A stretch of 64,000 nt of DNA, taken from contig JACPYP010000018.1 of assembly GCA_016195985.1 (NCBI GenBank), positions 1 to 64,000 on the forward strand, given 5' to 3'. Positions 2,245 to 29,732 of the stretch are shown here, piece after piece (within the stretch, counting starts at the first letter, position 1; every line of letters begins with the position of its first letter). Made by a program: the position numbers and the translations under genes. The notes beneath the pieces were generated by a model, which did no database searches, had not been told where the DNA came from, and saw only the letters and a program-made list of their open reading frames with translations. The stretch is from Acidobacteriota bacterium (lineage in GTDB: Bacteria; Acidobacteriota; Holophagae; Holophagales; Holophagaceae).

Positions 2245-3093
2245 TCAGAAGTGGACCTGCACCTGCAGCATGGGGGCGGTGACGCGTTTGTTGGTGGCTG
2301 GGGCGGGGGCGTCGTTGTTGGGGACGCCGAATTTGTTGTTCCAGTACTCGAGGCCTGCGCCGGCGTAGACCTTCTTCTTGGCGCCGAAGAGGGGGCTCAC
2401 GTCGACCATGAGGAAGAGGTTGGCCAGGGTTTCGGGCTTGGTGTCGGCGCCGAAGCCGTCCTTGCCCTTGGGGCCTTCGTAGTTGGCGTAGCCCTTGAAC
2501 TCTGCGTCCACGGAACCCAGCTGGAAGGGCAGGCCCCAGGCGGCGGAGAGGTAGTAGGTGGTCTTGTAGTCCACGGCCTTGCCCACGATGCCGTTCTGGT
2601 TCTGCTCGTGGCAGGCCCAGAGGCCCAGGTCGAAGAAGCCGCTGGGCGTTTTCAGGTTGAGGGTGGGGCCGAAGACGAGGAAGCGCTTCTTGGAGGCGAA
2701 GGCGTTGTCCTTGGCGTTGAAGTCGAAGCCGGCGGTGAAGGAAAGGTCGCGCACGGGGCCGAAGGACAGGTCCTTGCCGCTCAGCTTGCCGAGGCTGAGG
2801 GCGCCGCGGTAGGCCACGTAGACTTCGTTGGCGCCGGTCCTGCCGTTGGCGGCGGGATCGTTCTTGTCGGACATGAGCATGTCCACGTTGAAGAAGGTTG
2901 ATCCGTAGGCCCAGCCGCTGGCGTGGCCGAGCTGGAGGATGTCCTTCCGCAGGGTGCCGTCGATGCCGGGCTCCCGGAACTGGCTGCTGGTGCGGTAGCC
3001 GATGAGGGTGTCGCTCCAATCCGAGGCTGCCAGGGGCAGGGCCACGAGGGCGAGCAGGGCCCGCATGAGGAAAGTTGGGGCCAGCTTGGTCAT
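2245..3093 (-). CDS. Tsx-like nucleoside-specific outer membrane channel
   Basis: An outer membrane beta-barrel of 282 residues. It begins with a signal peptide (residues 1-23, LMRALLALVALPLAAS) and ends in VQVHF, the terminal phenylalanine pattern recognised by the BAM machinery. Strands alternate hydrophobic residues throughout, with the SDTLIGYRTSSQFREPG opening typical of Tsx/OmpK-like channels. The start has GGAG nine bases upstream. It lies 14 bases downstream of an NCS2 purine permease and in the same operon as a uracil-type permease, which makes passage of nucleosides or nucleobases across the outer membrane the natural role. Family assignment is by overall pattern and context. Confidence 0.65.
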   Translation of the reverse strand: MTKLAPTFLMRALLALVALPLAASDWSDTLIGYRTSSQFREPGIDGTLRKDILQLGHASGWAYGSTFFNVDMLMSDKNDPAANGRTGANEVYVAYRGALSLGKLSGKDLSFGPVRDLSFTAGFDFNAKDNAFASKKRFLVFGPTLNLKTPSGFFDLGLWACHEQNQNGIVGKAVDYKTTYYLSAAWGLPFQLGSVDAEFKGYANYEGPKGKDGFGADTKPETLANLFLMVDVSPLFGAKKKVYAGAGLEYWNNKFGVPNNDAPAPATNKRVTAPMLQVQVHF

Positions 3094-3107
3094 GGGAAGC
3101 TCCGGGG

Positions 3108-4526
3108 TTAGGCCGAAAGGAAGAGCAGCTTGAGCAGGAAGACGGCGGAGAGAGCCAGGACGATGCCGTTGATCTCCCTGAAGCGGCCCGTGGCCGCCTT
3201 CAGCACGGTGTGGGCGATCATGCCCAGGGCGATGCCGTTGACGATGGAGAAGGTGAAGGGCATGACGATCACCGCCAGGTAGGCGGGGACGGCGTCGGTG
3301 ATGTCGTCGAAATGGATCTCTCTGATCTCGGACAGCATGAAGAAGCCGATCATCATCAGCGCCGGCGCGGTGGCCTGCAGGGGCACCATGAGGAAGAGGG
3401 GCGAGAGGAAGAGGGCCAGGGCCAGCCAGCCCGCCGCCACCAGGGCCGTGAGGCCGGTGCGCCCGCCTTCGGCCACGCCTGAGGCGCTCTCGATGTAGGC
3501 GGTGATGGCCGTGGTGCCGAACATGGAGGCGAAGGTGGTGCCCACGGCATCGGCCATGAAGGCCTTCGATGCGCCGGGAAAGCGGCCTTCCTTGTCCAGC
3601 AGCTTGCCCTGGGCGCCGATGCCCATGAGTGTGCCGATGGTGTCAAACATGTCCACGAACAGCAGGGTGAACAGGATGATGAAGATGTTCACCATGCCGC
3701 CCATGGATTTGGTCCAGCTCCAGTCGTACTGGAACAGCTTCGGCCAGGCGGGCAGCTGGAAGAGGGCGCCCTTGGGCAGGTGGGTGAAGCCGCCGCCCAG
3801 GGATACGGGCAGCAGGCCCGCCAGGGTGATGGCCAGGATGCCCAGGAGGATGGCGCCCTTCACGCGCCGGGCCACCAGCACGGCGATGAGGAAGAGGCCC
3901 ACCACGCTCCAGAAAGCGGGCGTCAGGTGGCCGTGGTCGAAGAATTTTGCGATGAAGAGGTTGTTGACGTCGTGCAGGCCGAAGAGGGCGGACGGATCCT
4001 GCTTCAGCACCGGGAACACCGCGTCCGCGTCGAACTTCAGGCCCACCTGGGTGACGCCGGAATCCACGAAGCCGATGATGGCGATGAAGAGGCCGATGCC
4101 CACGGAGATGCCCTTCTTCAGCGAGAAGGGGATGGCGTCCATGAAGGCTTCCCGCACCTTCATGGCGCTGAGGAAGATGAAGACGATGCCTTCCAGCAGC
4201 AGGGCCGTGAGCGCCACCTGGATGGTGTAGCCCATGCCGCCCTGGTTGGCGGGCGCGCACACCGTGAAGGCGAAGAAGGCCGACAGGCCGATGCCCGAGG
4301 CGAAGGCGATGGGCAGGTTCGCGTAGAAGGCGCCGATGAGGGTGGAGAGGATGGCGCAGACCAGGAAGGCCGTGAAGCCCTGCGCCGGGGCGATGCCCGC
4401 CACCTTGAGGAAGGCGTTGGGGATCAGCGAGATCACGTAGGCCATGGAGATGAACGTGGTGGTGCCGGCCAGCACCTCCGTGGCCACCGTGGTGCCCTTG
4501 GCCTTCAAATGGAAGAACCGTTCCAT
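3108..4526 (-). CDS. NCS2 purine permease, AzgA/PbuG type
   Basis: A polytopic inner membrane transporter of 472 residues with about 12-14 hydrophobic segments. The N-terminus (FHLKAKGTTVATEVLAGTTTF then ISMAYVI) is the signature opening of the AzgA/PbuG branch of NCS2 proteins, which take up adenine, guanine or hypoxanthine by proton symport. Other family landmarks are LFVDMFDTIGTLMG near residue 290 and the TAYIESASGVAEGGRTGLT block about 350. It is 21 bases downstream of a UraA-type permease and 14 bases before a Tsx-like porin gene, forming a nucleobase uptake operon. Which purine is carried cannot be decided. Confidence 0.85.
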   Translation of the reverse strand: MERFFHLKAKGTTVATEVLAGTTTFISMAYVISLIPNAFLKVAGIAPAQGFTAFLVCAILSTLIGAFYANLPIAFASGIGLSAFFAFTVCAPANQGGMGYTIQVALTALLLEGIVFIFLSAMKVREAFMDAIPFSLKKGISVGIGLFIAIIGFVDSGVTQVGLKFDADAVFPVLKQDPSALFGLHDVNNLFIAKFFDHGHLTPAFWSVVGLFLIAVLVARRVKGAILLGILAITLAGLLPVSLGGGFTHLPKGALFQLPAWPKLFQYDWSWTKSMGGMVNIFIILFTLLFVDMFDTIGTLMGIGAQGKLLDKEGRFPGASKAFMADAVGTTFASMFGTTAITAYIESASGVAEGGRTGLTALVAAGWLALALFLSPLFLMVPLQATAPALMMIGFFMLSEIREIHFDDITDAVPAYLAVIVMPFTFSIVNGIALGMIAHTVLKAATGRFREINGIVLALSAVFLLKLLFLSA

Positions 4527-4547
4527 GCCGTCCTCCGGGAAAGGGGT

Positions 4548-5828
4548 TTACTGCTGCGGTTCAGAGTCGTGGCTGAGGCCCAGGCGGTCGAAGGCCCAGA
4601 AGAGCAGGCTCAGCGCGATGGCCACCACGGTGCCCAGGGCCATGCCCTTCAATTCCACGGCCCCCAGCTTCACGGCGGCCCCGCTGATGCCGCTGATGAG
4701 CACCACGGAGGTGAGGATGAGGTTGCGGGACTGGGTGTAGTCCACCTTCTTCTCGATGAGCATGCGGATGCCCGCCGCGGCGATGACGCCGAAGAGCAGG
4801 ATGCAGACGCCGCCCATGACGGGCACGGGGATGCTGCGGATGAGGGCCGCGAGCTTGCCCGAGAAGGAGACCAGGATGGCGATGCAGGCCGTGCCGCCGA
4901 TCACCCACACGCTGTAGACCTTGGTGATGGCCATGACGCCGATGTTCTCGCCGTAGGTGGTGTTGGGCGTGGCGCCCGCCAGGCCGGACAGCACGTTGGA
5001 GAGGCCGTCGCCCAGCAGGGAGCGGTGCAGGCCGGGATCCTTCATCAAGTCCTTGCCCACGATGTTGCCCGTCACCACCAGGTGGCCCACGTGCTCGGCC
5101 AGCACCACCAGGGCCGCGGGCAGGATGAGGAGGATGGCCTGTAGGTTGTAGGTGGGCGCGTACAGGGTGGGCGCCTGGAACCAGGGCGCCGCGCGGACCG
5201 CGTGAAGGTCCACCACGCCCAGGCCCAGGGACAGCAGGTAGCCCGCGATGACGCCCAGCAGCACGGGAATCACGGCCAGGAAGCCCCGCAGCAGCACGGA
5301 AGCGAGAATGGTCACTGCGAGGGTGGAAAGGGAGACCACCAGCGCAAAGCGCAGGGGCATGCCCAGCACGGCGGGACCCGCCGTGAGGCCCGCCATGTTG
5401 GTGGCCACGGGGGCCAGCTCCAGGCCGATGATGGCCACGATGGCGCCCATGGCCGCCGGAGGGAAGATGATGTCGATCCAGCGCGTGCCCGCGAATCGGA
5501 CCACTTGCGAGAGGGCGATGAAGACGAGGCCGAAGGCGATGAAGCCTCCCTGGGCGGCGGAATAGCTGAGACCCGCCGCCAGCACGGCGAAGACCGGCGA
5601 GAGGAAGGCGAAGCTCGATCCGAGGTACGCCGGAATCCGCCCCTTGGCCACCACCAGGTAGATCAGGGTGCCGATGCCGTTCATGAGGAGGCAGGTGGCC
5701 GGGTTCACCTTGAACAGGAACGGCACCAGCACTGTGGCGCCGAACATGGCGAACAGATGCTGGAGGCTCAGGGGGAGGGTCTGCACCAGGGGCAGGCGCT
5801 CGTCGACGTCGATGGTGCGGCGCAACAT
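4548..5828 (-). CDS. Uracil/xanthine NCS2 permease, UraA type
   Basis: A transporter of 426 residues opening with VDERLPLVQTLPLSLQHLF and MFGATVLVP, typical of the UraA/PyrP uracil permeases. The conserved NCS2 motif appears as NTTYGENIGVMAITKVYS about residue 280-300, with the glutamate that contacts the base in UraA and the conserved N-x-x-Y-x-E-N core. First gene of the three-gene uptake operon (UraA type, AzgA type, Tsx type). A 151-base leader separates it from the DoxX-like pseudogene upstream; I see no convincing pyrimidine or purine riboswitch there. Uracil is the likeliest substrate; xanthine or uric acid is the alternative. Confidence 0.85.
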   Translation of the reverse strand: MLRRTIDVDERLPLVQTLPLSLQHLFAMFGATVLVPFLFKVNPATCLLMNGIGTLIYLVVAKGRIPAYLGSSFAFLSPVFAVLAAGLSYSAAQGGFIAFGLVFIALSQVVRFAGTRWIDIIFPPAAMGAIVAIIGLELAPVATNMAGLTAGPAVLGMPLRFALVVSLSTLAVTILASVLLRGFLAVIPVLLGVIAGYLLSLGLGVVDLHAVRAAPWFQAPTLYAPTYNLQAILLILPAALVVLAEHVGHLVVTGNIVGKDLMKDPGLHRSLLGDGLSNVLSGLAGATPNTTYGENIGVMAITKVYSVWVIGGTACIAILVSFSGKLAALIRSIPVPVMGGVCILLFGVIAAAGIRMLIEKKVDYTQSRNLILTSVVLISGISGAAVKLGAVELKGMALGTVVAIALSLLFWAFDRLGLSHDSEPQQ

Positions 5829-6388: not shown

Positions 6389-7648
6389 TCAGTCGCCGGA
6401 CGGGGGGACCGCCTGGGGGCCCTCCGAAGCCTTGAGGGCGACCTCGCGGCGGTACTCCGCCGGGGATTTGCCTAGGTGGGCCTTGAAGATGGCGCCCAGG
6501 TACTCACGATGTTTGAAGCCGGAACGCTCGGCCACCTCCACCAGGGGCAGGTCCGTTTCGGCCAGGAGGCGCCGCGCGTGGTTCAGGCGGACCTGGATGA
6601 TCTCCTGCTGGATGGAGCGCCCGGTCTCGGTGCGGAAGCGGCGCTGCAGCACGCTGCGGGAGGTGGGGATGCGGGCGATGAGGGTGGCGGCGGACAGGCC
6701 CGTGCAGGCCTGGTCGCGGATGATGCGCAGGGCCGTGGCCACCTGCCGGTCCGGCGTGGCCAGCACGTCCGAGGAGGCGCGGACGATGACGCCGTGGGGC
6801 TCGATCCGCTCGGGCTGGGTGGGGGCGGGCTCGCCCCGGAGGAGGCGGTCCAGCAGCTCGGCGGCCTTGTAGCCCACCTGGCGGTGGCAGGCCTCCACCG
6901 AAGAAAGCGCCGGATTGCAGACCTCGCAGAGGGTCTCGTCGTTGTCGACGCTGACCACGGCCACATCGTCGGGCACCAGGATGCGGGCCCGGCGGCAGGC
7001 CTCCAGCAGGTGGTGGCCCAGCTGGTCGCTGGCCACCATGATGCCGATGGGCTTGGGCAGCTGGGCCAGCCAGCGGGCCAGGGCCTCCAGCTGGGTCTCC
7101 CAGGGCGTTTGGTCCATGAGCTGGCGCGGCACCTCGAAACAGGGGATCTGGTCCGGGACGCCGGGCAGGGAGAGGCGGAACCCCTCCCGCCTCTGCTCGG
7201 ACCAGTTCTCCGCCTGGATGCCCAGGAAGGCGAAGTGATGGAAGCCCCGCTCGATGAGGTGGGAGGCCGCCAGCCCGGCGATGCGCCGGTCGTCCACGTG
7301 CACCAGGGGCAGGCCCGTGCCGGGCACCAGCCCCAGCACGTCGACCACCGGAAGGCCCGTGGCCTGCACCGCCTCGGCGATGGTGGCATCCTGGACCCGC
7401 ACGATGATGCCGTCCCCCTGCCAATGGCGGAGCCAGGCCGGCAAACCCTCGGCCAGGCTGCGGGGCTCGTGGTAGAGCGCCCAGGGGCCGTGGTGGCGCG
7501 CGTACTTGGCGATGCCGCACAGGATGTCCCGCCCCGAGGCCAGGGACGTCTCCACCAGCAGGGCGATGCGGGGCGTCTTCGCCGGCATCAGCTCCGGAGC
7601 GGGGGGAACCGGCTCCGGGCTGGCGGGTCGACGGCGGCTGCCGCTCAT
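6389..7648 (-). CDS. XylR-like transcriptional regulator (sugar-binding domain plus AraC helix-turn-helix)
   Basis: A regulator of 419 residues. Residues 30-290 form a LacI-type periplasmic-binding fold (IALLVETSLASGRDILCGI, later GIMVASDQLGHHLLEA and VAVVSVDNDE), the layout of E. coli XylR. The last 110 residues are an AraC-type DNA-binding domain with two helix-turn-helix motifs, including LVEVAERSGFKHREYLGAIFK. ATG 7648 is chosen because it overlaps the TGA of the beta-galactosidase gene (ATGA), implying translational coupling. Family knowledge says such proteins activate transcription when a sugar binds the N-terminal domain; galactose or a galactoside is inferred from the neighbouring GH42 gene. 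The proteins of this type usually bind tandem repeats near the -35 element; none was located. Confidence 0.85.
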   Translation of the reverse strand: MSGSRRRPASPEPVPPAPELMPAKTPRIALLVETSLASGRDILCGIAKYARHHGPWALYHEPRSLAEGLPAWLRHWQGDGIIVRVQDATIAEAVQATGLPVVDVLGLVPGTGLPLVHVDDRRIAGLAASHLIERGFHHFAFLGIQAENWSEQRREGFRLSLPGVPDQIPCFEVPRQLMDQTPWETQLEALARWLAQLPKPIGIMVASDQLGHHLLEACRRARILVPDDVAVVSVDNDETLCEVCNPALSSVEACHRQVGYKAAELLDRLLRGEPAPTQPERIEPHGVIVRASSDVLATPDRQVATALRIIRDQACTGLSAATLIARIPTSRSVLQRRFRTETGRSIQQEIIQVRLNHARRLLAETDLPLVEVAERSGFKHREYLGAIFKAHLGKSPAEYRREVALKASEGPQAVPPSGD

Positions 7649-9768
7649 TGAGGTCCGGCCGAGGAAGGGGTGCCTTCCTTCCACACCAGCACCTGGGCCG
7701 GTTCGAGGGGATTCTGACCCAGCAGGACGCGGCTTCCGGCGGGGACGGGAAGCGCCGCCGCGCTGCCGGCATAGTTCACGCCCACGAAGAAGCCGTCCCG
7801 CCACTCCACGTAGACGCCCTTGGGCAGATCCTCGATGGGGACGCCCGCCGCCTGGTAGACGCCCCGAACCAGGCTGCGCTCGAGGGCGCCGTCCAGGGTT
7901 TCCACCCCGATGTAGGTGACGCTGCCCTTGCCCAGGGGCCGGGTGATGGCGGCGGCCGCGCCGGCGTAGAAGGCCTGAGCGTAGGCGGCCAGGGAGAGGG
8001 TGCCCTCGGCGGGGCGGAGGAGGTCGCCCCAGACGCGCCAGGCATGGGCCTGGCCTTGAGCCGTGACGCTCCCCGTGACGGCGCCGGGAAGGGTGTCGAA
8101 GCCCTGGAGGCGGGCGCCGATGAGGCTGTCCAGGCGGCCGCCCAGGGGCGCTTCGGGGAAGTGGCTCAGCTCATTCTTCTGGGCGCTGCGGCAGGTGAGG
8201 ATGAGGTGGCCGCCGCCTTCGGCATAGCGCCGCCACTTCTCGATGAGCTGAGGGCTGGCCAGCTGGTAGGCGGGCGCCACCAGGAAGGGGTAGGCGCTGA
8301 AATCGTCGGTTTCGCGGACGAAATCCATGGGCGCCCCGGTGGATTTCACGGCGGAGGCGTAGAGGCTGCGATGCCTCCAGGTGGACCAGCCCTCGCTCTG
8401 TTTCTGCGCTTCGAGATCCCAGAAATTGTCGTGGCTCCAGAGCAGCGCGGTGCGGCGGGCGGCGAGTTTCGGGGGCAGGGCCGCCGAGGGATCGAATTCG
8501 GCCTTCAGCTTGCGCAGCTCCTGCATGGCCTGGATGAATTCCGAGCCGCCCTGGCTGGGCGTGAGGCCATCGAGGCCCACGATGCCCTCGTGGTACATCT
8601 CGCTGCCGAAGCGCGGCTGGCGGTAGCGGTAGGTGCAGACGAGGGAGCTGCCGCCGCCGAAGGCGTGCCAGATCCACATGCGGACGGCGCCTGGGGCGGG
8701 CTTGGGATTGGTGGGGGCCCAGTTCACCTGGCCGGGCTGAAGCTCCATGACGCCGGTGGTTCCGGCGATGGGCCGGAAGTAGTCCAGGGCCTCCGCCATG
8801 CGGTAGGGGTTCCCCTGGCGGAAGGTCTGGCCCCCGAGGGCATTGCTGCCCGACACGGGGTAGTAGGTGAAGGTGGGGAAGTCGATGGCCGTGGTCCGGC
8901 GCGGATCGCTGCCCTGGGTGACATTGGTGTAGTTGGTGGTGATCCACTGGGAGGGCAGGCAGTGGCGCTTGAGGATGGTGGCCTGGCGGTCCAGGAAGGC
9001 CGCCTGGGTGTCGGCGGTGAAACGCTGGAAATCCAGCAGGGCGTGGGGGCTGGGCCTGTCCTCCCCGGCGATGGCGGAGGGCGGGCGCACCTCGCTGAAG
9101 GCCGCGTAGCGGAGGCTCCAGAAGCTGCCGCCCCAGACCTCGTTCAGCTTGTCCACGGTGCCGTAGCGCTGCTTCAGCCAGCGCTGGAAGGCGGACCGCG
9201 CCGAGGGGCTGAAATCCGGCTCGGCGCCGGGCTCGTTGTCCACCTGCCAGCCCCAGATGCGGGCGTCGCGGCCGTAGCGCTTGGCCAGGGCCGTGACGAC
9301 GCGGTCGACATAGGCGTGGAAGCGGGCGTTGGAAAGGGACCCGTTGGCCCGGGTGCCGTGCTCGCGGCGCCGCCCGTCCTGGCCCACCAGGTAGATGTCC
9401 GGGTGCTTTTCGCCCATCCAGGCCGGAGGGGCCGGGGAGGGGGTGCAGAGGATGACCTTGAGGCCCGCGGCGTGGGCTTCGGCGATGGCCGCGTCCAGCC
9501 AGGCGAAGTCGAAGTGTCCTTCCCGGGGTTCCAGGTAGGTCCAGGCGAACTCCGCGAAGTGCGTGAAGTCGAAGCCCAGCTTGCGGATGTTCTGCAGGTC
9601 CCGCGCCCACTGCCCGCGGGGCCACTGCTCCGGGTAGTAGTAGACCCCCACGGGCATGAGGTCCGCCTTGGGGAAGAAGGCCTTCGGCGCGGAGGCTTGC
9701 TGGGCCGCGCAGGGCCAGCCCAGGAGGGCCGAAAGCAGGGCGGTGAGGGCGCGCTGGGGATTCCGCAT
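7645..9768 (-). CDS. Exported GH42 beta-galactosidase
   Basis: A glycoside hydrolase of 707 residues. Residues 1-22 look like a signal peptide (LTALLSALLGWPCAAQ), so the enzyme probably acts in the periplasm or outside, unusual for GH42. The TIM barrel starts with GVYYYPEQWP (residue 41). The acid/base is E179 in WQVDNEPG and the nucleophile E342 in GVMELQPGQVNW, both at the expected family positions. The trimerisation-like domain and beta-sandwich follow. The start ATG 9768 follows the gcvPB-like stop by one base (TGACATG), with GAGG upstream. It hydrolyses beta-galactosides to galactose, feeding the galactose cluster 10 kb away. Fourth gene of an operon otherwise made of dehydrogenase and PLP-enzyme genes. 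Confidence 0.9.
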   Translation of the reverse strand: MRNPQRALTALLSALLGWPCAAQQASAPKAFFPKADLMPVGVYYYPEQWPRGQWARDLQNIRKLGFDFTHFAEFAWTYLEPREGHFDFAWLDAAIAEAHAAGLKVILCTPSPAPPAWMGEKHPDIYLVGQDGRRREHGTRANGSLSNARFHAYVDRVVTALAKRYGRDARIWGWQVDNEPGAEPDFSPSARSAFQRWLKQRYGTVDKLNEVWGGSFWSLRYAAFSEVRPPSAIAGEDRPSPHALLDFQRFTADTQAAFLDRQATILKRHCLPSQWITTNYTNVTQGSDPRRTTAIDFPTFTYYPVSGSNALGGQTFRQGNPYRMAEALDYFRPIAGTTGVMELQPGQVNWAPTNPKPAPGAVRMWIWHAFGGGSSLVCTYRYRQPRFGSEMYHEGIVGLDGLTPSQGGSEFIQAMQELRKLKAEFDPSAALPPKLAARRTALLWSHDNFWDLEAQKQSEGWSTWRHRSLYASAVKSTGAPMDFVRETDDFSAYPFLVAPAYQLASPQLIEKWRRYAEGGGHLILTCRSAQKNELSHFPEAPLGGRLDSLIGARLQGFDTLPGAVTGSVTAQGQAHAWRVWGDLLRPAEGTLSLAAYAQAFYAGAAAAITRPLGKGSVTYIGVETLDGALERSLVRGVYQAAGVPIEDLPKGVYVEWRDGFFVGVNYAGSAAALPVPAGSRVLLGQNPLEPAQVLVWKEGTPSSAGPQ

Positions 9769-9769
9769 G

Positions 9770-11359
9770 TCAGGCCTCGGGAAGGTGCTTCCGCTGATAG
9801 AGGCGCCAGGTGATGGCCCAGCGCTTCGGATCGTCGAAATCATCGTGATGGATGTGGTGGCAGACGCTCCGGTGGGGCGCCGTCTTAACGGTACCCGGGT
9901 CGCCGTAAGCCTCCCTGGAGATCTGCTCCAGAACCCCCACGTACTCGTCCAGCTCCTCCCGGGAATAGGATTCCGTGGGCTCGATGGTGAAGGGCTGGGG
10001 CACGATGAAGGGGTGGTGGCTGCTCCAGAGGTGCATGCCGTAGTCCGCCATGCGCACGGCGATGTCCTCCGTGGTCACGCCCGTGTCCCGGTGGAGCTGC
10101 TCCCAGCTGTAGCGCACCTGCTCGATGCGGCGCCGGCCCGCGGCATAGGGGGCGGAGGCGCCCTTGATCCGGGTGATCTTCTTCAGCAGGTAGTTGTTGT
10201 TGAGGACGGCGATCTCGGCGGCCTCCTTGATGCCCTCGGCCCCCAGGGCGCGGATCCACGCGTAGGCCCGCAGCTGCACCTGGGCCGTGCCCCAGAAGGC
10301 GCGCAGCTTGCCGATGGAATGGGGGAGGTCGAAGTCCAGGCGGTAGCGGCACCCCTCCCCCTCCTCCCCCTCCGCCTTGACCACCACGGGCTTGGGCAGG
10401 AAGGGGCGCAGCTTCTGCACCACGCCCAGGGCGCCGCCCGCGGGACCGCCGCAGCCGTGGGGCGTGCTGAAGGTCTTGTGCAGGTTGAAGAAGCAGAGGT
10501 CGAAGCCCGCTTCCTTGGCGCGGGTGATGCCCATGATGCCGTTGAGGTTGGCCTGGTCGTAGCCGCAGAGCCCACCTGCCTCGTGGACCAGGCGCGTGAA
10601 TGCCTGGATCTGCGGGTTGAAGATGCCGGTGTCCTCCGGATTCGTGATGAGCAGGCCCGCCGTGCGCGGGCCCACGGCTTTCTTCAGATCCTCCACCGTG
10701 GGCAGGCCGTCTTCGCCCTGCATGAGGGTGATGACCTTGTAGCCTTTCACGGCGGCGGCGGCGGCATCCGACGGGTGGCTGAAGATGGTGGTGATGATCT
10801 CGTCGCGGTGGGCCTCGCCGCGGGAGGCGTGGTAGGCCTGGATGATGGAGACCATGCCGAGAATGGCGGCGGATCCCGAGGCGGGCTGCATGCTGAAGGC
10901 ATCCAGGCCCGAGATCTCGCGCAGGTAGAGGTCCAGCTCGTGCATGATCCGCAGGATGCCCTGCACGGTGCGCTCGTCCTGCAGGGGGTGCAGCCGCGCC
11001 ATCTTGGGGCTGGAGGCCAGCACGTCGTTGATCTTGGGGCTGTACTTCATGGTGCAGGTGCCCTGGCCGATGTCGACGGTGAAATCCGCGCCCAGGGTCT
11101 GCTGGGAGAGGCGCAGGAAGTGCTTGAGCACGCGCATCTGGCCCACTTCGGGCAGTGCCGGGGCCTGGGCGCGGAGCAGTGGGGCGGGCAGGGCCGCGAG
11201 GCCCGGAACGGCGGCGGCGACGCCCTGCTCGGCCGGGGCCACGGCCACCCCCACCTCGCCCGGCTTGTGCAGCTCGAAGATCAGTTCCTCGTCCCACTTG
11301 GCCTGGTGGAACGCGGTGCGGACTTTCAGGGGCCGCTCCAGGGAGTGTTGGCTGGCCAT
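9770..11359 (-). CDS. gcvPB: GcvPB-like PLP decarboxylase subunit (divergent glycine dehydrogenase family)
   Basis: A fold-type I PLP protein of 529 residues, longer than the usual 475-490 of GcvPB. Conserved are GTCTMKYSPKIN (residues about 98-110), HPLQDE, and the PLP lysine in FFNLHKTFSTPHG. Several hallmark positions differ: the family's HGTNPASA block reads SHPSDAAAAA here, the D-G-A-N motif reads DQANLNG, the expected Q-P-(N/A)-x-G stretch reads QPASGSAAIL, and the glycine-rich loop after the lysine reads GCGGPAGGALG. It is coupled to gcvPA-like gene upstream (TGACATG). The pair should form an alpha2beta2 decarboxylase. No gcvT or gcvH is nearby, so a substrate other than glycine is possible; that is inference. 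Confidence 0.75.
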   Translation of the reverse strand: MASQHSLERPLKVRTAFHQAKWDEELIFELHKPGEVGVAVAPAEQGVAAAVPGLAALPAPLLRAQAPALPEVGQMRVLKHFLRLSQQTLGADFTVDIGQGTCTMKYSPKINDVLASSPKMARLHPLQDERTVQGILRIMHELDLYLREISGLDAFSMQPASGSAAILGMVSIIQAYHASRGEAHRDEIITTIFSHPSDAAAAAVKGYKVITLMQGEDGLPTVEDLKKAVGPRTAGLLITNPEDTGIFNPQIQAFTRLVHEAGGLCGYDQANLNGIMGITRAKEAGFDLCFFNLHKTFSTPHGCGGPAGGALGVVQKLRPFLPKPVVVKAEGEEGEGCRYRLDFDLPHSIGKLRAFWGTAQVQLRAYAWIRALGAEGIKEAAEIAVLNNNYLLKKITRIKGASAPYAAGRRRIEQVRYSWEQLHRDTGVTTEDIAVRMADYGMHLWSSHHPFIVPQPFTIEPTESYSREELDEYVGVLEQISREAYGDPGTVKTAPHRSVCHHIHHDDFDDPKRWAITWRLYQRKHLPEA

Positions 11360-11360
11360 G

Positions 11361-12764
11361 TCAGTTCCCTCCCAGAATGGCGCGGAGCGCGGCGATGGTG
11401 CGGTCGATGTCCTCCTGGCTCACCAGCTCGGTGACGGCCCACAGGGCGCTCTGGCCCAGGCCCGGGAATTCGGTGGACAGATCCTTGCCGCCGAAGATGT
11501 GTTCCTTCAGCAGGGCCTCGTTGATTTCGGCGACGGTCCGGCCCGTGCTGCTGAAATCGACGAGCAGCTCCTTGTAGAAGGGCGCGTCCAGGGCCGGCGC
11601 CTTCACGCCGGGGAGGGCGCCGAGCGCCTGCGCCAGGTACTGGGCCTTTTGAAGGATGTGCAGGCCGAGATCCCGCATGCCCACGGGGCCCATGAGCGAG
11701 AGGTAGACCGCCGCGGCGATGCCGTGCAGGGCGGAGGCGGTGCCGACGAATTCCTTGCCCTGCTCGCGGTGGGCGAAGGAGGTGCGGTCGTAGGCCACGT
11801 CGCCGAAACCGTACTCGCCGGGAACGTCGGTCCGGCTGATGCCGAAGAGGCGGCTCGGGTACTCCATGACGAGCTTTTCCTCGTCGCGGGTGGCGATGAA
11901 GCCGCCCATGCCGCCGCCGAAGTGCATGTGGTTGCCCAGGGTGTGGATGTCGCCGCAGACGATGTCCGCCCCGTACTGGCTGGGCGGGGCGAGGATGCCC
12001 AGGGCGTTGGGATCGGTGCCCACCACCAGGAGGCTGCCGTTCCCGTGGGCCAGGTCGGCGATGGCTTGGCCCTGGGTCTCCAGGCAGCCCAGGTAGCCCG
12101 GGTTCTCGAAGTAGACGGCGGCCACCTGGCCGGTGAGCTGGGCCTTGAGGTGCGCGAGGTCCAGCTGCCCGGTCTTCAAGTCCCAGGCCAGTAGCTCCAG
12201 CTGCATCACCGGCTCGCAGTAGTTGCGGATGGCCGCCAGGCGGTCGGGGCTGATGCTGCCCGCCACCAGGGCCACCGGGCGGCCGGTGTAGCGGCCTGCC
12301 ATGCGCAGGGAGGTGGCAGCCGCCTGAAACCAATCGAAGGTGGGGACGTTGCAGATGTCCATGTCCAGCAGCTCGGCCATGAGGCTTTCGTACTCCCAGA
12401 GGGCCTGGAACCGGCCGAAGTCCTCGTAGGGCTCTCCCGCGTAGGCCGTGAGGAACTCGCTGCGGCGCGTGATCTCGTCGCAGATGGCGGGCACGTAGTG
12501 GTTGTAGCAGCCGGCCCCCAGGAAGCTGACAGCCTCTTCGCAGGAGGTGTTCTTCGCCAGCATCCGCTCGATGGTGCGCTTGAGCTGGGCTTCGGCGGGG
12601 ATGGCCTCCGGCAGGTTCAGCTTGCCGCGGAAGCGCAGGGCTTCGGGAATGTCTCCGTACAGGTCGTCCATGCTGCCGGCGCCCACGGCGGCCAGCATGG
12701 CGGCCTTCACGCCGGGTTCGGAATTGGGGATGTAGGGGTGGGCCCTCCGGGCCTGGACCGTCAT
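11361..12764 (-). CDS. gcvPA: GcvPA-like PLP decarboxylase subunit (divergent)
   Basis: A protein of 467 residues in the GcvPA family. The N-terminus keeps the family plan: HPYIPNSEPGVKAAMLAAVG, DLYGDIPEALRF, SFLGAGCYNHYVPAI and a SRxEFxTAY-like RRSEFLTAY. The following Y-Q-P-E-(I/V)-S-Q-G hallmark is replaced by GEPYEDFGRFQAL, and the late T-R-E-Q-H-I-R-R-x-K-A-T-S-N-I-C block reads FAHREQGKEFVGTASALHG. The loop expected as P-F-G-x-P-x-x-x-G-G-P reads TLGNHMHFGGGMGG. ATG 12764 is preferred, with GGAG upstream, 35 bases after the SDR stop. These substitutions fall in the active-site half contributed by PA, which suggests altered substrate choice. Confidence 0.75.
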   Translation of the reverse strand: MTVQARRAHPYIPNSEPGVKAAMLAAVGAGSMDDLYGDIPEALRFRGKLNLPEAIPAEAQLKRTIERMLAKNTSCEEAVSFLGAGCYNHYVPAICDEITRRSEFLTAYAGEPYEDFGRFQALWEYESLMAELLDMDICNVPTFDWFQAAATSLRMAGRYTGRPVALVAGSISPDRLAAIRNYCEPVMQLELLAWDLKTGQLDLAHLKAQLTGQVAAVYFENPGYLGCLETQGQAIADLAHGNGSLLVVGTDPNALGILAPPSQYGADIVCGDIHTLGNHMHFGGGMGGFIATRDEEKLVMEYPSRLFGISRTDVPGEYGFGDVAYDRTSFAHREQGKEFVGTASALHGIAAAVYLSLMGPVGMRDLGLHILQKAQYLAQALGALPGVKAPALDAPFYKELLVDFSSTGRTVAEINEALLKEHIFGGKDLSTEFPGLGQSALWAVTELVSQEDIDRTIAALRAILGGN

Positions 12765-12799: not shown

Positions 12800-13591
12800 C
12801 TAGGCGATGCCGCCGCCGTCGACGACGACGTGGGTGCCCGTCACCCATGCGGACAGGCCCGACGCGAGAAAGAGCACCGTGTTGGCCACGTCCTGAGGGG
12901 TGCCTACGCGGTGGAGGGGGCGGGCCGCCGCCTCCTCCATGAACCGGGTTTCGTCCTCGCCCAGCTGGGCGCATTCGCTGCGCAGCATGGGCGTGTCGAT
13001 GTCGCCGGGGCAGACGGCGTTGACGCGGATGCGGTGCTTGCCGAAGTCGATGGCCATGGCGCGGGTCATGTTCCAGACGCCGCCCTTGGCCGCGCAGTAG
13101 GAGAGCGCGTCGGGGCCGCCCTTGAGGGCCCAGCCCGAGCCGGTGTTGATGATGCTGCCGCCCCGCCCGCCCTGGATCATGAAGGGCGCCACGTGGCGCG
13201 TGAGCAGGTAGACGCCCTTGAGCATCACGCCCAGGGCCAGATCCCACTCGGCTTCGAGAAGGTCGAGGGCGTTCTTCCGGATGGCCACGCCCGCGTTGTT
13301 GAACAGGATGTCGATGCGCCCGAAGCGGGCCATGGCGGCCTCGGCGGCGGCCTTGCAGTCGGCTTCCAGGCGCACGTCGCAGCGCTGGAAGGCGGCGCGG
13401 CCCCCGGCGGCCTCGATGAGGCGCACCGTTTCCTGGCCTCCGGCCTCCTGGATGTCGAGGACCAGCACCGCGGCGCCGGCCTCCGCCAGGCGCAGGGCGG
13501 TGCCCCGGCCGATGCCCGAGGCGGCGCCCGTGACCAGGGCCACCTGGCCCTCCAGGGAAAGCAGGTCGGAGAGGGCGGGGGCCAGCGGCAT
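12800..13591 (-). CDS. SDR-family oxidoreductase
   Basis: A classical short-chain dehydrogenase/reductase of 263 residues. The cofactor motif TGAASGIG is at about residue 21-28, followed by an acidic D at the end of beta2 (VLVLDIQEA), which favours NAD(H) over NADP(H). NNAGVA is present near residue 98, and the catalytic tetrad appears as N, S (INTGSGWA), Y and K in SYCAAKGG. The end VTGTHVVVDGG is typical. It is the first gene of the operon that carries the GcvPA/GcvPB-like pair, GH42 and XylR-like genes, and it faces a divergent GntR regulator. The substrate is unknown; a hydroxy-acid, amino alcohol or sugar are all possible. Confidence 0.85.
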   Translation of the reverse strand: MPLAPALSDLLSLEGQVALVTGAASGIGRGTALRLAEAGAAVLVLDIQEAGGQETVRLIEAAGGRAAFQRCDVRLEADCKAAAEAAMARFGRIDILFNNAGVAIRKNALDLLEAEWDLALGVMLKGVYLLTRHVAPFMIQGGRGGSIINTGSGWALKGGPDALSYCAAKGGVWNMTRAMAIDFGKHRIRVNAVCPGDIDTPMLRSECAQLGEDETRFMEEAAARPLHRVGTPQDVANTVLFLASGLSAWVTGTHVVVDGGGIA

Positions 13592-13801
13592 CGGGAACCT
13601 CGGGGGCAGGTGGGCTTGGGGTACTGAAGTATCAATACCCTATCATTGGTATATCAGTTTCTGAAAACAGCTCAATAGAATTTTTATGAAAATCAATGAA
13701 TGGGCCAATGTTCCATAAATCAGAAGGATAAGTCGGAAGATCTCCGTGATATACCCTTGTATGGCAGGCGTTGGCGCCAGGCCTTTTCCGGATGTTCGAA
13801 C
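13592..13801. promoter_or_regulatory. Divergent control region between the SDR operon and the GntR gene
   Basis: An AT-rich 210-base gap in otherwise GC-rich DNA. The nonamer GGTATATCA (13649-13657) recurs as its exact reverse complement TGATATACC (13747-13755). Around the first copy there is a further inverted element, aatacc (13635-13640) and ggtata (13649-13654), separated by 8 bases. Such short spaced palindromes are typical GntR/FCD operators, so autoregulation plus control of the SDR operon is likely. The assignment is by position and symmetry only. Confidence 0.5.
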
Positions 13802-14506
13802 ATGCCCTCCAAGTCCCGCTCCACGCAGCCATCCCGGACCCGCATCGCGGCGGGTCCCTCCTCTGAGGCGGGCCAAAGCCTGGCGGAACAGGCCTACCAG
13901 CAGCTGGAGGAGATGATCGTCACCCTGGAGCTGGCGCCCGGTTCGGTGCTTTCCGAAGCCAGCCTCAGCGCCCTCATGGGCATCGGGCGCACGCCCATCC
14001 GCGAGGCCCTCAAGCGGCTGGAGATCCAGCGGCTGGTGGCCAGCGTGCCCCGTCGCGGGTTGCTGGTGCGCGAGATGAATGTGGCTGAGCACTTCGCGCT
14101 GCTGGAAGTGATGCGGCCCCTGGACCGCCTGCTGGCCACCAAGGCGGCGCGCTGGGCCACGGACGAGCAGCGCGCCGCCCTGCGGGAGGCCGCCAAGGGG
14201 ATGCTCGGGGCGGCGAAGAAGGGCGACAAGCACAGCTACCTGCTCTGCGACCAGGCCTGCGATCAGATCGTGACCGCCGCGGCCCACAATCCCTTCGCCG
14301 TGGACGCGCTGTCGCCGCTCTATTCGCACTGCCGCCGCATCTGGTGCTCGTACAGCCGGCCGGCGGACCTGCTCCTCTCCGCCGAGAAGCATGCCCGCCT
14401 CATGGAAGCCGTGGCCAGCGGCGACGAGGAAGCCGCGGGGCGCGCGTCCGACGCCCTGCTGGACTTCCTCGAAGCGTTCACCCGTTCCGTGGTCGGGGTG
14501 ATTTAG
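13802..14506 (+). CDS. GntR-family regulator, FCD (FadR) subfamily
   Basis: A regulator of 234 residues from ATG 13802; longer in-frame starts up to 13700 add a segment without family character. The N-terminal winged helix is clear: QAYQQLEEMIVTLELAPGS, then LSEASLSALMGIGRTPIREAL and KRLEIQRLV, matching the GntR signature. The C-terminal all-helical FCD domain follows, with the metal-type positions D, H and H seen around LLCDQACDQIV and AEKHARLM. It is transcribed away from the SDR/gcvP-like operon, and two inverted copies of a nonamer lie in between. These proteins usually repress catabolic operons and are released by a carboxylate or amino-acid substrate, which fits the enzyme pair opposite. 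Confidence 0.85.
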   Translation: MPSKSRSTQPSRTRIAAGPSSEAGQSLAEQAYQQLEEMIVTLELAPGSVLSEASLSALMGIGRTPIREALKRLEIQRLVASVPRRGLLVREMNVAEHFALLEVMRPLDRLLATKAARWATDEQRAALREAAKGMLGAAKKGDKHSYLLCDQACDQIVTAAAHNPFAVDALSPLYSHCRRIWCSYSRPADLLLSAEKHARLMEAVASGDEEAAGRASDALLDFLEAFTRSVVGVI

Positions 14507-14556
14507 AGGTCGTAACAAAACCCCACGTCGTATCGTCGGGTTTTGTCACGACCTCT
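14505..14556 (+). terminator. Long near-perfect inverted repeat at the end of the GntR gene
   Basis: Arms 14505-14523 and 14538-14556 are 19 bases each with a single mismatch (14514 against 14547), separated by 14 bases. The left arm starts inside the TAG stop codon. There is no T run, so it may act as a terminator through hairpin strength alone, as an RNA stabiliser, or be a mobile-repeat remnant. Confidence 0.55.
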
Positions 14557-14560
14557 TAGG

Positions 14561-14602
14561 AGCCCGTCCAAGTCATGGGTGGGGGCTGCACTGGGACGGG
14601 CT
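14561..14602 (-). terminator. Hairpin terminator of the outer membrane protein gene
   Basis: Arms AGCCCGTCC (14561-14569) and GGACGGGCT (14594-14602) pair perfectly over 9 bases just past the TAG of the minus-strand gene ending at 14604. Together with the neighbouring 19-base inverted repeat it separates two convergent genes. No long T tract is visible. Confidence 0.5.
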
Positions 14603-14603
14603 T

Positions 14604-15200
14604 CTAGAACGAATACCGGACCCCGGCCTGGAACCAGCTGGGATTGAGGAACTGGCTGCCGGAGGGCCCGGGGCCCAGTTCCGCCCACTGGAAGGCGCCC
14701 ACGACCGACAGGCGGGGCGTCGCCCGGTACTCCAGGTCGGCCCGGGTGCCGAGCTTGACGCCCTTCACGTACTGGCCGCCTCCCTGGCCCAGAAGGTCCG
14801 AGGCCAGGTGGTGGCGGTTGGCCGAAAGCCCGAGATAGAGGCGGAGATTCTCGGCCAGGTCGAAGCGCATGGCGCCGTAGACCTGGTACGTGGTCAGGGC
14901 CGGGCCCTTGAGGTTGAGATCGGCCTGGGGATCGCCGTTGGCGTCGAGGCCCAGGCCGCGGCTGTGGGAGCCGTCCGAGAACTTCGACACGGCAAGGCCC
15001 ACCCGGAAGGGCAGGGACTGGGCCGGGGAATCCCAGGCGCCGTCAAGGGAGACGCCGGTGTTGGAGCCGGTCACCTCCTTCAGGGCGGCGGTGCCGCTGG
15101 CCAGGTTCAGGGAGGCGGAGAAGGCGCCGCTCTCCTGGGCGGCCAAGGGCAGGCATCCGGCGGCGAGGGCGAGAAGGACGGGACGGAAGGATCGGAACAT
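14604..15200 (-). CDS. Small outer membrane beta-barrel-like protein
   Basis: A protein of 198 residues not assigned to a named family. A signal peptide covers residues 1-21 (LLALAAGCLPLAAQ). The rest is made of short amphipathic strands separated by G, N, D and S-rich turns, and the chain ends in FQAGVRYSF, the terminal phenylalanine typical of outer membrane barrels. It lies 12 bases after the TonB-dependent receptor gene and in the same operon. An eight-strand barrel that accompanies the receptor, perhaps in substrate capture or structural support, is the simplest reading. Confidence 0.6.
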   Translation of the reverse strand: MFRSFRPVLLALAAGCLPLAAQESGAFSASLNLASGTAALKEVTGSNTGVSLDGAWDSPAQSLPFRVGLAVSKFSDGSHSRGLGLDANGDPQADLNLKGPALTTYQVYGAMRFDLAENLRLYLGLSANRHHLASDLLGQGGGQYVKGVKLGTRADLEYRATPRLSVVGAFQWAELGPGPSGSQFLNPSWFQAGVRYSF

Positions 15201-15212
15201 GGTCAGTCCTCT

Positions 15213-18200
15213 CTAGAAGCGGAAGCCGCAGCTGAATTTCGCCGAGCGGCCGGCGGTGTAGTAGGAGGAGCCGGTGACGTGGGAGGTGCCCCAGTAGGCC
15301 GGGTTCTTCATGAAGAGCTGGGTGCGCCCGTTGGAAGAGTCGTTGGTGAAGCTGCCGTAGGTGGAGAAGGGCATGGTCACGTTGAAGATGTTGGCGATGC
15401 TGGCGTCGCCGATGAAGTGGACGTTGGCGAAGCTCAGGGGCACGTCCCAGGTGGCTTTGAAGTCCACGTTGTAGGTGTCGTTGAAGGTGTAGGCGCCCAG
15501 GGCCGAGTAGTACTGGCGGTAGACCGCGTCGGGCGACACGCCCAGGTTGGGGTAGCTCGCGTTGAGATCCGTGCCCCACTTGGTCTGATCGATGGCGGCG
15601 TAGTTCCGGGCGCTCCAGGGCTTGCCGCTGTCGTAGCTGGCCATGAGGGCCAGGGTCATGCGGCCGTTCTTCCCCAGGGGCAAGACATGCAGCAGGGCCA
15701 GGCGGGCCTTCTGGCTCTGGTTGTTGGCCAGGGTGCCGGAGGCGCCGTAGTCCGCGGGGCTCAGGCCCATGTTCTTGAGCACGATGGGATTCCACATGAT
15801 CGTGCCCATGGTGGGATCGTTGTTGCGCCACCCGCCCCAGGCGATGTCGCCGTCGTCGTTGTTGCCCGTGAGGCGGCTGTAAGTGTAGTTGCCCTGCACG
15901 CTCCAGCGGGGGCCCAGGTTCTTGACGAATTCCACCTCCACGGCCTTGTACTCGCGCTGGAGGTCACTGCTGTTGTCGTAGCGTCGGGTGATGTCCTGCA
16001 TGGCGGGCAGGCCGGAGCGCGAGGGATCCTGCACGGTGATGACGTAGGGATCCGCGAAATCCCAGCGCTGGGCCCACATGTCCAGCCACTGGCGGTAGAC
16101 CAGCGTGACGCCCACCCGGGACTGGTCCGCGTAGCCGCGCTTGTAGCCGAGGGTGAACTCCTGGGTGCGCGGGGGGCGCAGGTCCGAGGCCAGGACGTTG
16201 CGGGTGGACTGGTCCACGAAGGACACCACGCGGTTGTAGTTCTTCAGGTCCACCAGGGTCTGGTAGTCCACGAAGCGCACCACCTGCCCTGGTGCGCCGG
16301 CGCCGAGCTCAGCGGCATTGGCGCTCCAGCCGCGGTCCACTTCGACGGTGGTCTTCTTGCCGGTGAACTGGCCGAAGAGGGCCTGGTTGAAGTTCCCGGC
16401 GTTGTTGGCCGCGGTGAAGGTGAGCAGGTGGGTGCTGTCGCCCTTGGGATCCCAGCGGAAGATGAAGGAGTAGGTGGGATCCGTGGATTTGGCCATGGTG
16501 CGGCCATCCACGTCCGTGGCCTTGTTGGTGTCGATGCGCAGGCCGGCGCCCACCATGATGTTGGGGTTGATGGTCCAGGTCTCGTTGGCGTAGGCGCCCA
16601 CCTGGTTGCAGTGGGCCCGGCCCTTGGGCCCCAGGGCCTGGCGCACGAAGGGGGCGGCGCCGTAGCTGTGGCCGTCATCCGGGGAGTGGTAGACGTAGTA
16701 GTCCGACGGGTTGTTGGGGTAGTTGACCGTGGGGAAGAGGTAGCCCCGGGTCTGGGGGTTGTAGTAGGCGCCGCCGACATCGAAGCGCAGGCTGCGCTTG
16801 CCCCAGTCCTCGCCGTTGTCCGTGTAGCTGTCGAAGTACTCGAAGCCCAGATCGATGTCGTGGGAACCGGCGGCCTGGGGCGCCAGGTTGAGGTTCAGAG
16901 CGGCGCTGACGTTGCCGTGCACTTCGGGGCTCGCGCCCAGGGCGAAGCCGAAGGGCAGGCCGAAGCCCTGCAGACCGTTGTCCGGAGCGCCCGCCTGGCC
17001 CACCTGGACGTAGACGCCTTCCTGCCCGCCGTAGGCCGGATCGCCCGTGTCCTGGCCCCAGGTGGTCTTGCTGGTGGTGTAGCGGCCTTCCAGGAAGGCC
17101 ATGGGGCTGAGGATGCCTTTGTAGTTGAGGCTGGCCATCTGGTACTTGTTGTAGCGGCTGCCCAGGGAGGCGAGGCTCAGGGCCTGGCCGGAGGCGTCAT
17201 CGTTGGAGTAGACCTGCTTCTGGTCCACGAAGCTCAGCTCCAGGATGTGGTCGTTGGTGACGGCGCCGGTGAGCTTGCCCTCGTAGTAGTGGGAATCGAA
17301 GGTCTCGGTGTAGTACTTGCCATTGTCGAATGTGGCGATCTGGTAGCCGTTGCCCGGCCCGGCGTTCAGCAGGGCGTCCACACCCGCCACGCCGGTCTGC
17401 ATGGGGGCGTTGGCCTCGTCCGGAAAGCGACCGAGGCTGTTGCTCCAGGCCTGGTTGGGCTTGAGGATGGTGCCCACGGCGAACCAAAGGCGGTCCTTGA
17501 GGATGGGTCCGCGCAGGGTGACGTTGTATTCCCGGTTGAGGGTGTCGGCCCACTTGGCGTCGGCGGTGGTGTCGGGGGTGCGGGCTTTCCAGTCGTCGCG
17601 GGAGAGCTTGACGCGCAGAGAGCCCTCGAAGGTGTTGCTGCCGCTCTTGGTGACGATGTTCACGGCGCCGCCCAGGGCGCGGCCGAAGCGCACGTTCACC
17701 TGGGAGGTGACCACCTGGGCGTCCTCGATGTTGTCGTCGATGGCCCAGGTGGCGCCCAGGCCGTTGGCGTAATCGTCCTTCACCTCCGCGCCGTTGACGC
17801 GGAAGTTGGTGTAGGTGGCCGCGCCGCCGCGGATGATGTACGAGCCGTCGATGCTGGAAGAGGTTCCGGCCGTCATGTCCAGGGCGCCGTAGAAATTCCG
17901 GTCCACCAGGGGCAGCTCGCCCATGGCCTCGGCGGAGAAGTTGGCGCCGGAGTTCACCTGGGTCTTGTCGATGACCGCGCCATGGGCGCTGATCACTTCC
18001 ACCACGGCGGACTTGATGGGCATGAGGGTGAGGTCGATGCGGACATTGCTGCCGATGCCCACGCGGATATCGCTGCGGTGGGTGGAATCGAAGCCTTCCT
18101 TGGTCACGGTCACCTTGAAGCTGCCGATGGGCAGCAGCGGGGCGCGCCACTCACCGTTCTTGTTGGTGAAGAGGATCCTGGGTCCAAAGAGGGCCGGGGA

Positions 18201-21284: not shown

Positions 21285-21380
21285 TTGACCCGATTCCTTA
21301 CAAAATTGACCCGGGCCCTTCTGGGCCAGGGGCTCCAGGCACCCTATGCTGCTGTCCAGTTCCTTCCCCAGGTTCCGGGC

Positions 21381-22343
21381 ATGCCTTCTTCTGCGTTCAC
21401 AGACATCCTGTCGCTCGAAAACGAGCAGCTATCGGTCCAGCTCCGGCCCGGCCAGGGAGCGAAGCTGAGTTCCCTCCTGGACCGCCGGACGGGACGCGAA
21501 TGGCTGCTCCCCAGCCAGCTGCCCGGAGGGGCCTACCTTCCGCCCGTCTACGGCGATGATTTCAGCCATCACGACACCTCGGGCTTCGATGAGTGCTTCC
21601 CCACCGTGTCCGCCTGCCGGGCTCCGGAGGCTGACCTTTCCTGGCCCGATCATGGGGAACTCTGGTGCCGCCCCTGGGAGGTGGAGCGGCAGGGGGATGC
21701 GCTTCTGGCTCGGATCGAGGGCCAGGCCTGGCCCTACACCTTCAGCCGCCGGGTCAGATTGGAGGGCGACACCGTCTGCCTGGACTACACCCTGGACAAT
21801 CACGCGGACCGCCCCTTTCTGAACCTCTGGAGCGCCCATCCCCTGCTCAAGGTCAGCCCGGGGATGCGGCTGCAGCTGCCGGGCCGGCCCCGCGCGGCCC
21901 TCGTGAATGCGCCTTCGGACCCGGCTTTCGGAAGCCACGGCGAGCGGCGCCCTTGGCCCGAGCTGCTTCCGGGGGTGGATTTCTCCACGGTGCAGCCCCG
22001 GACTTCAGGCCGGGCCGTGAAGGTCTTTTTTCCCGAGGTGCCGGAAGGCGCCTGCGCGATCCTGGATCCCCGCAGCGGCGAGGCGCTGAGCTTCAGCTGG
22101 AATCCGGCGGAGCTGCCCCACCTGGGCCTCTGGCTTTGCTATGGGGGTTGGCCTGAGGACGGCCGCCCCGGCCACCTCACCGTGGCCCTGGAACCCTGCA
22201 CGGGCCTGCCGGACCGCCTGGACCAGGCCCGGGCGGGGGGCACCTGCGCCTCCCTGCCCCCTGGTGGGCGGGCTTCCTGGGGCCTGCGCCTCCGTTCGCA
22301 CCGCTTCCATCCACCGTCCTCTCCCCCTAGCGAGGCCCCATGA
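21381..22343 (+). CDS. Aldose 1-epimerase family protein
   Basis: A beta-sandwich protein of 320 residues from ATG 21381; the frame is open from 21285 but the first 32 codons lack family character. The opening LENEQLSVQLRPGQGAKLSSL and DRRTGREWL match the mutarotase family (galactose mutarotase-like), as do DECFPTVSAC, HGELW and NLWSAHPLLKV (histidines in the active-site groove). A glutamate expected as the base is in VALEPCTGLPD. It overlaps the symporter start by ATGA. In a pathway with galK, interconversion of beta- and alpha-galactose is the natural role, though the protein is a divergent member. Confidence 0.75.
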   Translation: MPSSAFTDILSLENEQLSVQLRPGQGAKLSSLLDRRTGREWLLPSQLPGGAYLPPVYGDDFSHHDTSGFDECFPTVSACRAPEADLSWPDHGELWCRPWEVERQGDALLARIEGQAWPYTFSRRVRLEGDTVCLDYTLDNHADRPFLNLWSAHPLLKVSPGMRLQLPGRPRAALVNAPSDPAFGSHGERRPWPELLPGVDFSTVQPRTSGRAVKVFFPEVPEGACAILDPRSGEALSFSWNPAELPHLGLWLCYGGWPEDGRPGHLTVALEPCTGLPDRLDQARAGGTCASLPPGGRASWGLRLRSHRFHPPSSPPSEAP

Positions 22344-24082: not shown

Positions 24083-24091
24083 GGAGCAGCC

Positions 24092-26524: not shown

Positions 26525-26527
26525 ATC

Positions 26528-29703: not shown

Positions 29704-29732
29704 TTCCGGTTTCCACGCGACAAGGAGTTCCC

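Follow-up and report, generated by a model that had tools for sequence, protein, structure and literature searches.

A GcvPA/GcvPB-like gene pair of Geothrix points to a widely distributed P-protein branch with a rebuilt substrate side

The window analysed here, 64,000 nucleotides of contig JACPYP010000018.1 (assembly GCA_016195985.1, positions 1 to 64,000) from an acidobacterium of the genus Geothrix, encodes on its minus strand two adjacent proteins resembling GcvPA and GcvPB (PA and PB below), the subunits of the pyridoxal phosphate (PLP)-dependent P-protein. To our knowledge, the P-protein is known only as the glycine decarboxylase of the glycine cleavage system. The comparisons presented here show that the pair represents a branch within the P-protein family, termed the N-clade, that is widely distributed and has a rebuilt substrate side, and it is very likely that the pair does not perform ordinary glycine cleavage. 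We favour, with some reservation, the view that it is a functionally distinct two-subunit PLP enzyme that is independent of the H-protein (GcvH) and most likely decarboxylates an amino acid other than glycine. The two genes and the relevant blocks within them, all on the minus strand, are as follows.

11361..12764, GcvPA-like subunit, 467 aa (Pfam GDC-P; NF001696, 463 bits against a cut-off of 364; 1WYT_A, E=2e-63; placed in the N-clade in the PA tree)
12399..12434, PA EPYEDFGRFQAL block in place of YQPEISQG (Tyr98 in Thermus numbering deleted in 20/20 N-clade sequences)
11742..11786, PA RTSFAHREQGKEFVG block where canonical proteins have REQHIRRxKATSNIC (none of the 20 sequences keeps Arg311, which is human R373 and a predicted contact of the H-protein)
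9770..11359, GcvPB-like subunit, 529 aa, PLP-bearing (NF003346, 564 bits against a cut-off of 441; 1WYT_B, E=1e-91; placed in the N-clade in the PB tree)
10751..10780, SHPSDAAAAA block, PB residues 194-203 (canonical SAHGTNPASA; His retained, Gly to Pro in 18/19)
10547..10558, DQAN block (DGAN in canonical proteins; the Asp and the two Asn retained, Gly replaced by Gln, His, Ser or Ala over the clade)
10475..10477, PLP lysine codon, PB K295 (Thermus K266; conserved in 19/19 N-clade and 28/28 canonical sequences)

Both reading frames are intact. An initial annotation of this DNA had described a pair in which the PLP lysine and the TCTMKY block survive and the glycine dehydrogenase hallmarks have changed, and this description was borne out: PB retains GTCTMKY and carries K295 within the FNLHKTFSTPHG block, SHPSDAAAAA is present, YDQAN occupies PB residues 267-271, and PA reads AGEPYEDFGRFQAL where canonical proteins have TPYQPEISQG. 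The late TREQHIRRxKATSNIC block had been reported as gone; its canonical sequence is indeed lost, although the block is rewritten rather than deleted, since PA residues 327-341 (RTSFAHREQGKEFVG) align with it without a gap. The premise that these motifs are nearly invariant in glycine dehydrogenase also held, the positions being identical in 28/28 (a few in 25-27/28) of the canonical sequences compared.

To place the pair, relatives were sampled from Acidobacteriota whole genomes and a plasmid collection, with genes in unannotated loci called by a home-made script. A scan of the genome collection returned a single close relative, Geothrix limicola, at 85% identity, a match that together with a search of the same genus assigns the host to Geothrix, and within the genus the pair occurs in three of 47 genomes, nearly all other checked genomes holding only a canonical P-protein approximately 33-35% identical to the window PA. 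Thirteen of 396 sampled Acidobacteriota genomes encode a PA at least 52% identical to that of the window, the next matches being canonical-like and at most 38% identical; one of the thirteen is broken into pieces and was omitted from the trees. The 20 N-clade loci analysed thus comprise 12 Acidobacteriota genomes and eight plasmids, the latter from Rhodobacterales (Gemmobacter, Paracoccus, Roseicitreum and Antarctobacter), Sphingomonas, two Rhodococcus and a haloarchaeon, Natronosalvus, with PA identities of 39-47% to the window PA. In maximum-likelihood trees the N-clade separates from canonical sequences with a Shimodaira-Hasegawa-like approximate likelihood ratio test (SH-aLRT) value of 100 for both PA (20 versus 28) and PB (19 versus 28), in agreement with the expectation that the pair would form a clade of its own away from canonical gcvPAB; these are unrooted quick searches, in which a sister branch and a branch derived from the canonical one are not told apart.

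The residues that distinguish the branch were identified by comparing 20 PA and 19 PB N-clade sequences with 28 canonical P-proteins in Thermus numbering, the Thermus sequence being taken from HMMER alignments. The PLP core (PB C74, T75, K77, H94, H166, D239, N242, N244, H265, K266 and T267) is identical in both groups. However, a number of positions at which canonical proteins show no or almost no variation are replaced over the branch, namely PA Y98 (deleted in 20/20), E101 (retained in one), S129, E139, Q308, R311, A315, S317 and N318, and PB S73, E136, G167, T214, E219, Y237, G240, A245, Y333, A353, H375, P402 and A413. The N-clade has invariant residues of its own (PB D243, N248, W368, N388, R411, E413 and W445; PA D115, P141, R154 and H279), as a conserved function would show. 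The hallmark substrate-side motifs YQPE.SQG, HG.NPA and DGAN, together with PB His375, are replaced in the window pair and in its 20 PA and 19 PB relatives. Because these relatives come from very different organisms, and because the ratio of nonsynonymous to synonymous substitution rates (dN/dS) between Geothrix copies of the pair is 0.13-0.19, indicative of purifying selection, the motif changes are clade-wide and not attributable to chance or decay. Two sub-branches can be distinguished, the Acidobacteriota members having YDQAN and HKTFxxPH and the plasmid members mostly YDHAN or YDSAN and HKTFGAPK, differences which suggest that their substrates may differ.

The closest characterized system is the two-subunit P-protein of Thermus thermophilus (1WYT/1WYU/1WYV), with which the pair shares the fold, paired subunits, PA-PB gene order and the PLP lysine and core. 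It differs in PA by the deletion of Tyr98, replacement of Glu101 in most members and the rewritten REQHIRR-KATSNIC block, in PB by G167P, T214D, E219N, Y333W, A353N, H375E, P402W and A413P, and in lacking gcvT/gcvH neighbours and falling in a separate clade. The single-chain GLDC/GcvP proteins (human 6I33, Synechocystis 4LGL/4LHC) have homologous halves, and the human residues were used to map the active site and predicted H-protein contacts; unlike the pair they form one chain with canonical motifs and glycine specificity, and their similarity to the pair is lower (E=5e-31 for the PA half; E=2e-51 or better for the PB half). In the human enzyme Y161 and Y164 belong to the active site and R373 forms a predicted salt bridge with the H-protein and is mutated in nonketotic hyperglycinemia (PMC7259800); in our alignment Y161/Y164 correspond to PA Y95/Y98 and R373 to PA R311. 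Among the H-protein contacts predicted by the docking model, R311 is lost in all 20 N-clade sequences and I310 is replaced. Loss of the predicted R311 contact is moderate evidence against use of H-protein, and only moderate because the contacts derive from a docking model.

A complete canonical glycine cleavage system is encoded elsewhere in the genome. In this host (Geothrix; 4.26 Mb, 98% complete) the canonical PA/PB pair lies on contig C8 and the genes for GcvH and GcvT lie on contig C18, so the possibility that the window pair is the sole P-protein of the genome was rejected. A canonical P-protein and GcvH also accompany the pair in 12 of 13 N-clade Acidobacteriota genomes, the exception being 81% complete. 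No gcvT or gcvH gene was found in the window or at any N-clade locus read, while canonical control loci yielded both genes in that search, and no glycine riboswitch was found in the window. The absence of GcvT/GcvH partners noted initially is therefore correct for this locus and for the N-clade loci read, though not for the genome. Neither of two observations named at the outset as contradicting a new function was made: canonical GcvPAB is not missing, and none of the 20 N-clade loci is a gcv operon. With its own clade and a canonical system elsewhere, the pair is a genuine paralogue, and the glycine dehydrogenase of this genome is another protein. Plasmids of Deinococcus sp. QL22 (locus L058) and Natrinema (L060) carry canonical-like gcvPA/gcvPB pairs with no gcvT/gcvH within approximately 4 kb.

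An SDR (short-chain dehydrogenase/reductase) gene and/or a gene of the ATP-NAD-kinase family (AcoX-like) lies at or near N-clade loci, the window having the SDR. An SDR orthologous to that of the window (54-95% identity) is found beside or near the pair at seven other Acidobacteriota loci. The kinase gene, with an intact GGDGT motif, adjoins the pair in seven of eight plasmid loci and in four Acidobacteriota loci; the eighth plasmid also carries it. Within the 396-genome set the kinase was found in eight genomes, five of which also have the pair (0.3 expected; hypergeometric 9e-7, with genome relatedness ignored). SDRs are common, and the informative partners are the kinase and the orthologous acidobacterial SDR. 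Co-occurrence with SDR and GntR genes had been proposed as a mark of a new function; the SDR recurs over the clade, and a GntR gene adjoins the pair in Geothrix.

In Peptoclostridium (L042:8031-10107) and one acidobacterium (L091:5461-7532) an AcoX-like kinase gene stands directly beside a gene for a HisC/CobD-type PLP enzyme (44% identity between the two), an assignment below both cut-offs; this kinase is a possible amino-acid or amino-alcohol kinase. Neither organism has the pair near the kinase, and the arrangement points to a common pathway for kinase and PLP enzyme. The HisC/CobD-type enzymes resemble the N-clade pair in this recurrent pairing, and differ from it in belonging to another PLP subfamily and in that Geothrix is without the kinase. 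Sphingoid-base and amino-alcohol pathways were considered in view of the fold of the kinase and of class III aminotransferases encoded nearby, and were dropped, the aminotransferases matching different subfamilies.

Taken together, the conserved PLP anchor would very probably form an external aldimine with an amino-acid-like substrate. Transfer of an aminomethyl group to lipoyl-GcvH appears improbable because YQPE, PB His375 and the Arg311 contact are gone, so that a free amine would be released after decarboxylation or another C-alpha bond would be broken; the pair would presumably act independently of lipoate. That the reaction is decarboxylation of another amino acid seems probable, if far from assured. 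Several points weigh against this interpretation. Both subunits exceed the NCBI equivalog cut-offs for GcvPA and GcvPB by the margins listed above, the NCBIfam models not separating the paralogue branch. K314, also a predicted H-protein contact in the docking model, is still Lys in 10 of 20 N-clade sequences (Gln in the window), and decarboxylation itself is assumed by analogy with the parent family. The AcoX-like kinase was not found in the Geothrix genome with two different queries, which led us to reject it as part of the Geothrix system; because Geothrix is without it, the kinase is a partner in part of the family only. Finally, beyond SDR and kinase the neighbours differ by lineage, and no single common pathway was found from them.

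The alternative that survives best, a real possibility though one we consider less probable than not by a good measure, is that the same PLP scaffold supports other chemistry at C-alpha or C-beta, such as retro-aldol cleavage, transamination or beta- or gamma-elimination, with, for instance, a phosphorylated amino acid supplied by the kinase as the substrate of elimination. The rebuilt positions (PA 98-104 and 306-319; PB T214, H375 and P402) could shift the choice of bond, and the occurrence of the same kinase family next to HisC/CobD-type PLP enzymes where the pair is absent from the genome hints at a phosphorylated substrate or product. However, no residue diagnostic of another reaction was found, and Geothrix has no kinase.

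The pair might instead be a glycine dehydrogenase isozyme that still cleaves glycine, using GcvH and GcvT from their separate locus, as would be consistent with the equivalog cut-offs passed, the intact PLP core, the presence of both partner proteins and an identity of the window PB to canonical PB of 39% or better. We regard this as unlikely in view of the clade-wide loss of canonical-invariant residues (R311 in 20/20), the deep separate branch, the retention of a canonical copy alongside in 12/13 genomes and the absence of gcvT/gcvH from every N-clade locus read. Still less probable is delivery of the product to a lipoyl domain other than GcvH, for instance the E2 of a 2-oxoacid or acetoin-type dehydrogenase. 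In its favour, the pair and kinase at locus L054 are followed by SDR, E1-alpha, E1-beta and lipoyl E2 genes, but this is one locus only and no lipoyl protein was recognised beside the other loci examined. A decaying or non-catalytic duplicate, to which the loss of many canonical motifs might point, can be dismissed given the dN/dS of 0.13-0.19, a PLP core kept in all members and the clade-wide conservation of specific invariant residues.

A more far-reaching reading, which we consider less probable than not, is of a new PLP enzyme family that keeps the P-protein fold, works without lipoate and is coupled metabolically to an SDR and to a small-molecule kinase with the ATP-NAD-kinase fold. Together they would make up an undescribed pathway that degrades a hydroxylated or phosphorylated amino acid, present in bacteria and a haloarchaeon on both chromosomes and plasmids and concealed by annotation as glycine dehydrogenase. 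No paper on such a P-protein relative, or on its link to AcoX/ATP-NAD kinases, was found in the open-access literature. A sister branch that keeps the PLP anchor but has its substrate side rebuilt would be a natural new use for the P-protein fold, and would imply that a set of automatically annotated GcvPA/GcvPB genes is assigned wrongly when glycine and one-carbon metabolism are modelled. With the residue list and a compact operon in Geothrix limicola, a named species, the question lends itself to direct testing.

In the window the pair lies within a tight minus-strand run of four genes (SDR, GcvPA-like, GcvPB-like and glycoside hydrolase family 42 (GH42); 13591 to 7645), flanked by two regulator genes and a divergent region.

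12800..13591, minus strand, SDR oxidoreductase, heading the gene run (orthologous to the SDRs at the seven Acidobacteriota loci above)
7645..9768, minus strand, GH42 beta-galactosidase with a signal-like N-terminus
6389..7588, minus strand, XylR-like LacI/AraC regulator downstream of GH42 (conserved in three Geothrix; putative operon member)
13802..14506, plus strand, divergent GntR/FCD regulator (alternative start 13700; synteny in three Geothrix)
13647..13656, no strand assigned, operator-like site TGATATACCA / TGGTATATCA, consensus TGGTATACCA (conserved in three Geothrix; putative function)
13747..13756, no strand assigned, operator-like site TGATATACCC, 100 bp away from the preceding one (conserved in three Geothrix; putative function)

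The GH42 ATG is one base past the PB stop codon, and within the genus GH42 is carried by the same three genomes as the pair. The 210-base divergent region contains the two near-palindromic copies; both match TGGTATACCA exactly in G. limicola and one does so in genome G020, and those of the window are one and two letters off. Exact TGGTATACCA occurred at no other locus in the set compared, beyond copies of the same regions. The divergent GntR probably controls the operon via these TGGTATACCA-like sites, whose role as operators is predicted. In Geothrix the four genes would form an inducible, co-transcribed catabolic operon in which a secreted GH42 might release the substrate, or a precursor of it, from a galactoside, while a hydroxyl group on the substrate or the product might be the target of the SDR. 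In hosts other than Geothrix an ATP-NAD-kinase-family enzyme seems to take part in the same pathway. As a guess, the substrate could be a hydroxylated amino acid, perhaps derived from glycosylated peptides.

Neighbours of the pair in Gemmobacter and Rhodococcus include an amino-acid permease, an M20 deacylase, an AMP-binding ligase and a copper amine oxidase, a set that fits breakdown of an amino acid to an amine, and those in Acidobacteriota include alpha-fucosidase, GH2, MGH1-like and GH20 glycoside hydrolases. At L054 a protein of approximately 540 aa without Pfam or NCBIfam match (14149-15762, plus strand) is encoded between the pair and kinase and the SDR-E1-E2 genes. The contig stretch that holds the Geothrix operon also bears a Leloir/alpha-galactosidase island at 19.5-32 kb of the window (19521-32024, plus strand) encoding an MGH1-like glycoside hydrolase, an SSF symporter, galK, galT, galE and a GH27 alpha-galactosidase, together with an aldose-epimerase-like protein (assigned by eye, no Pfam match) and, between galT and galE, a 722-aa protein with no Pfam match (26528-28696, plus strand). 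Genes for a Tsx-like channel, an NCS2-type permease and a uracil permease stand in a row at 2245-5828 (minus strand) and are partly conserved beside the pair in three Geothrix.

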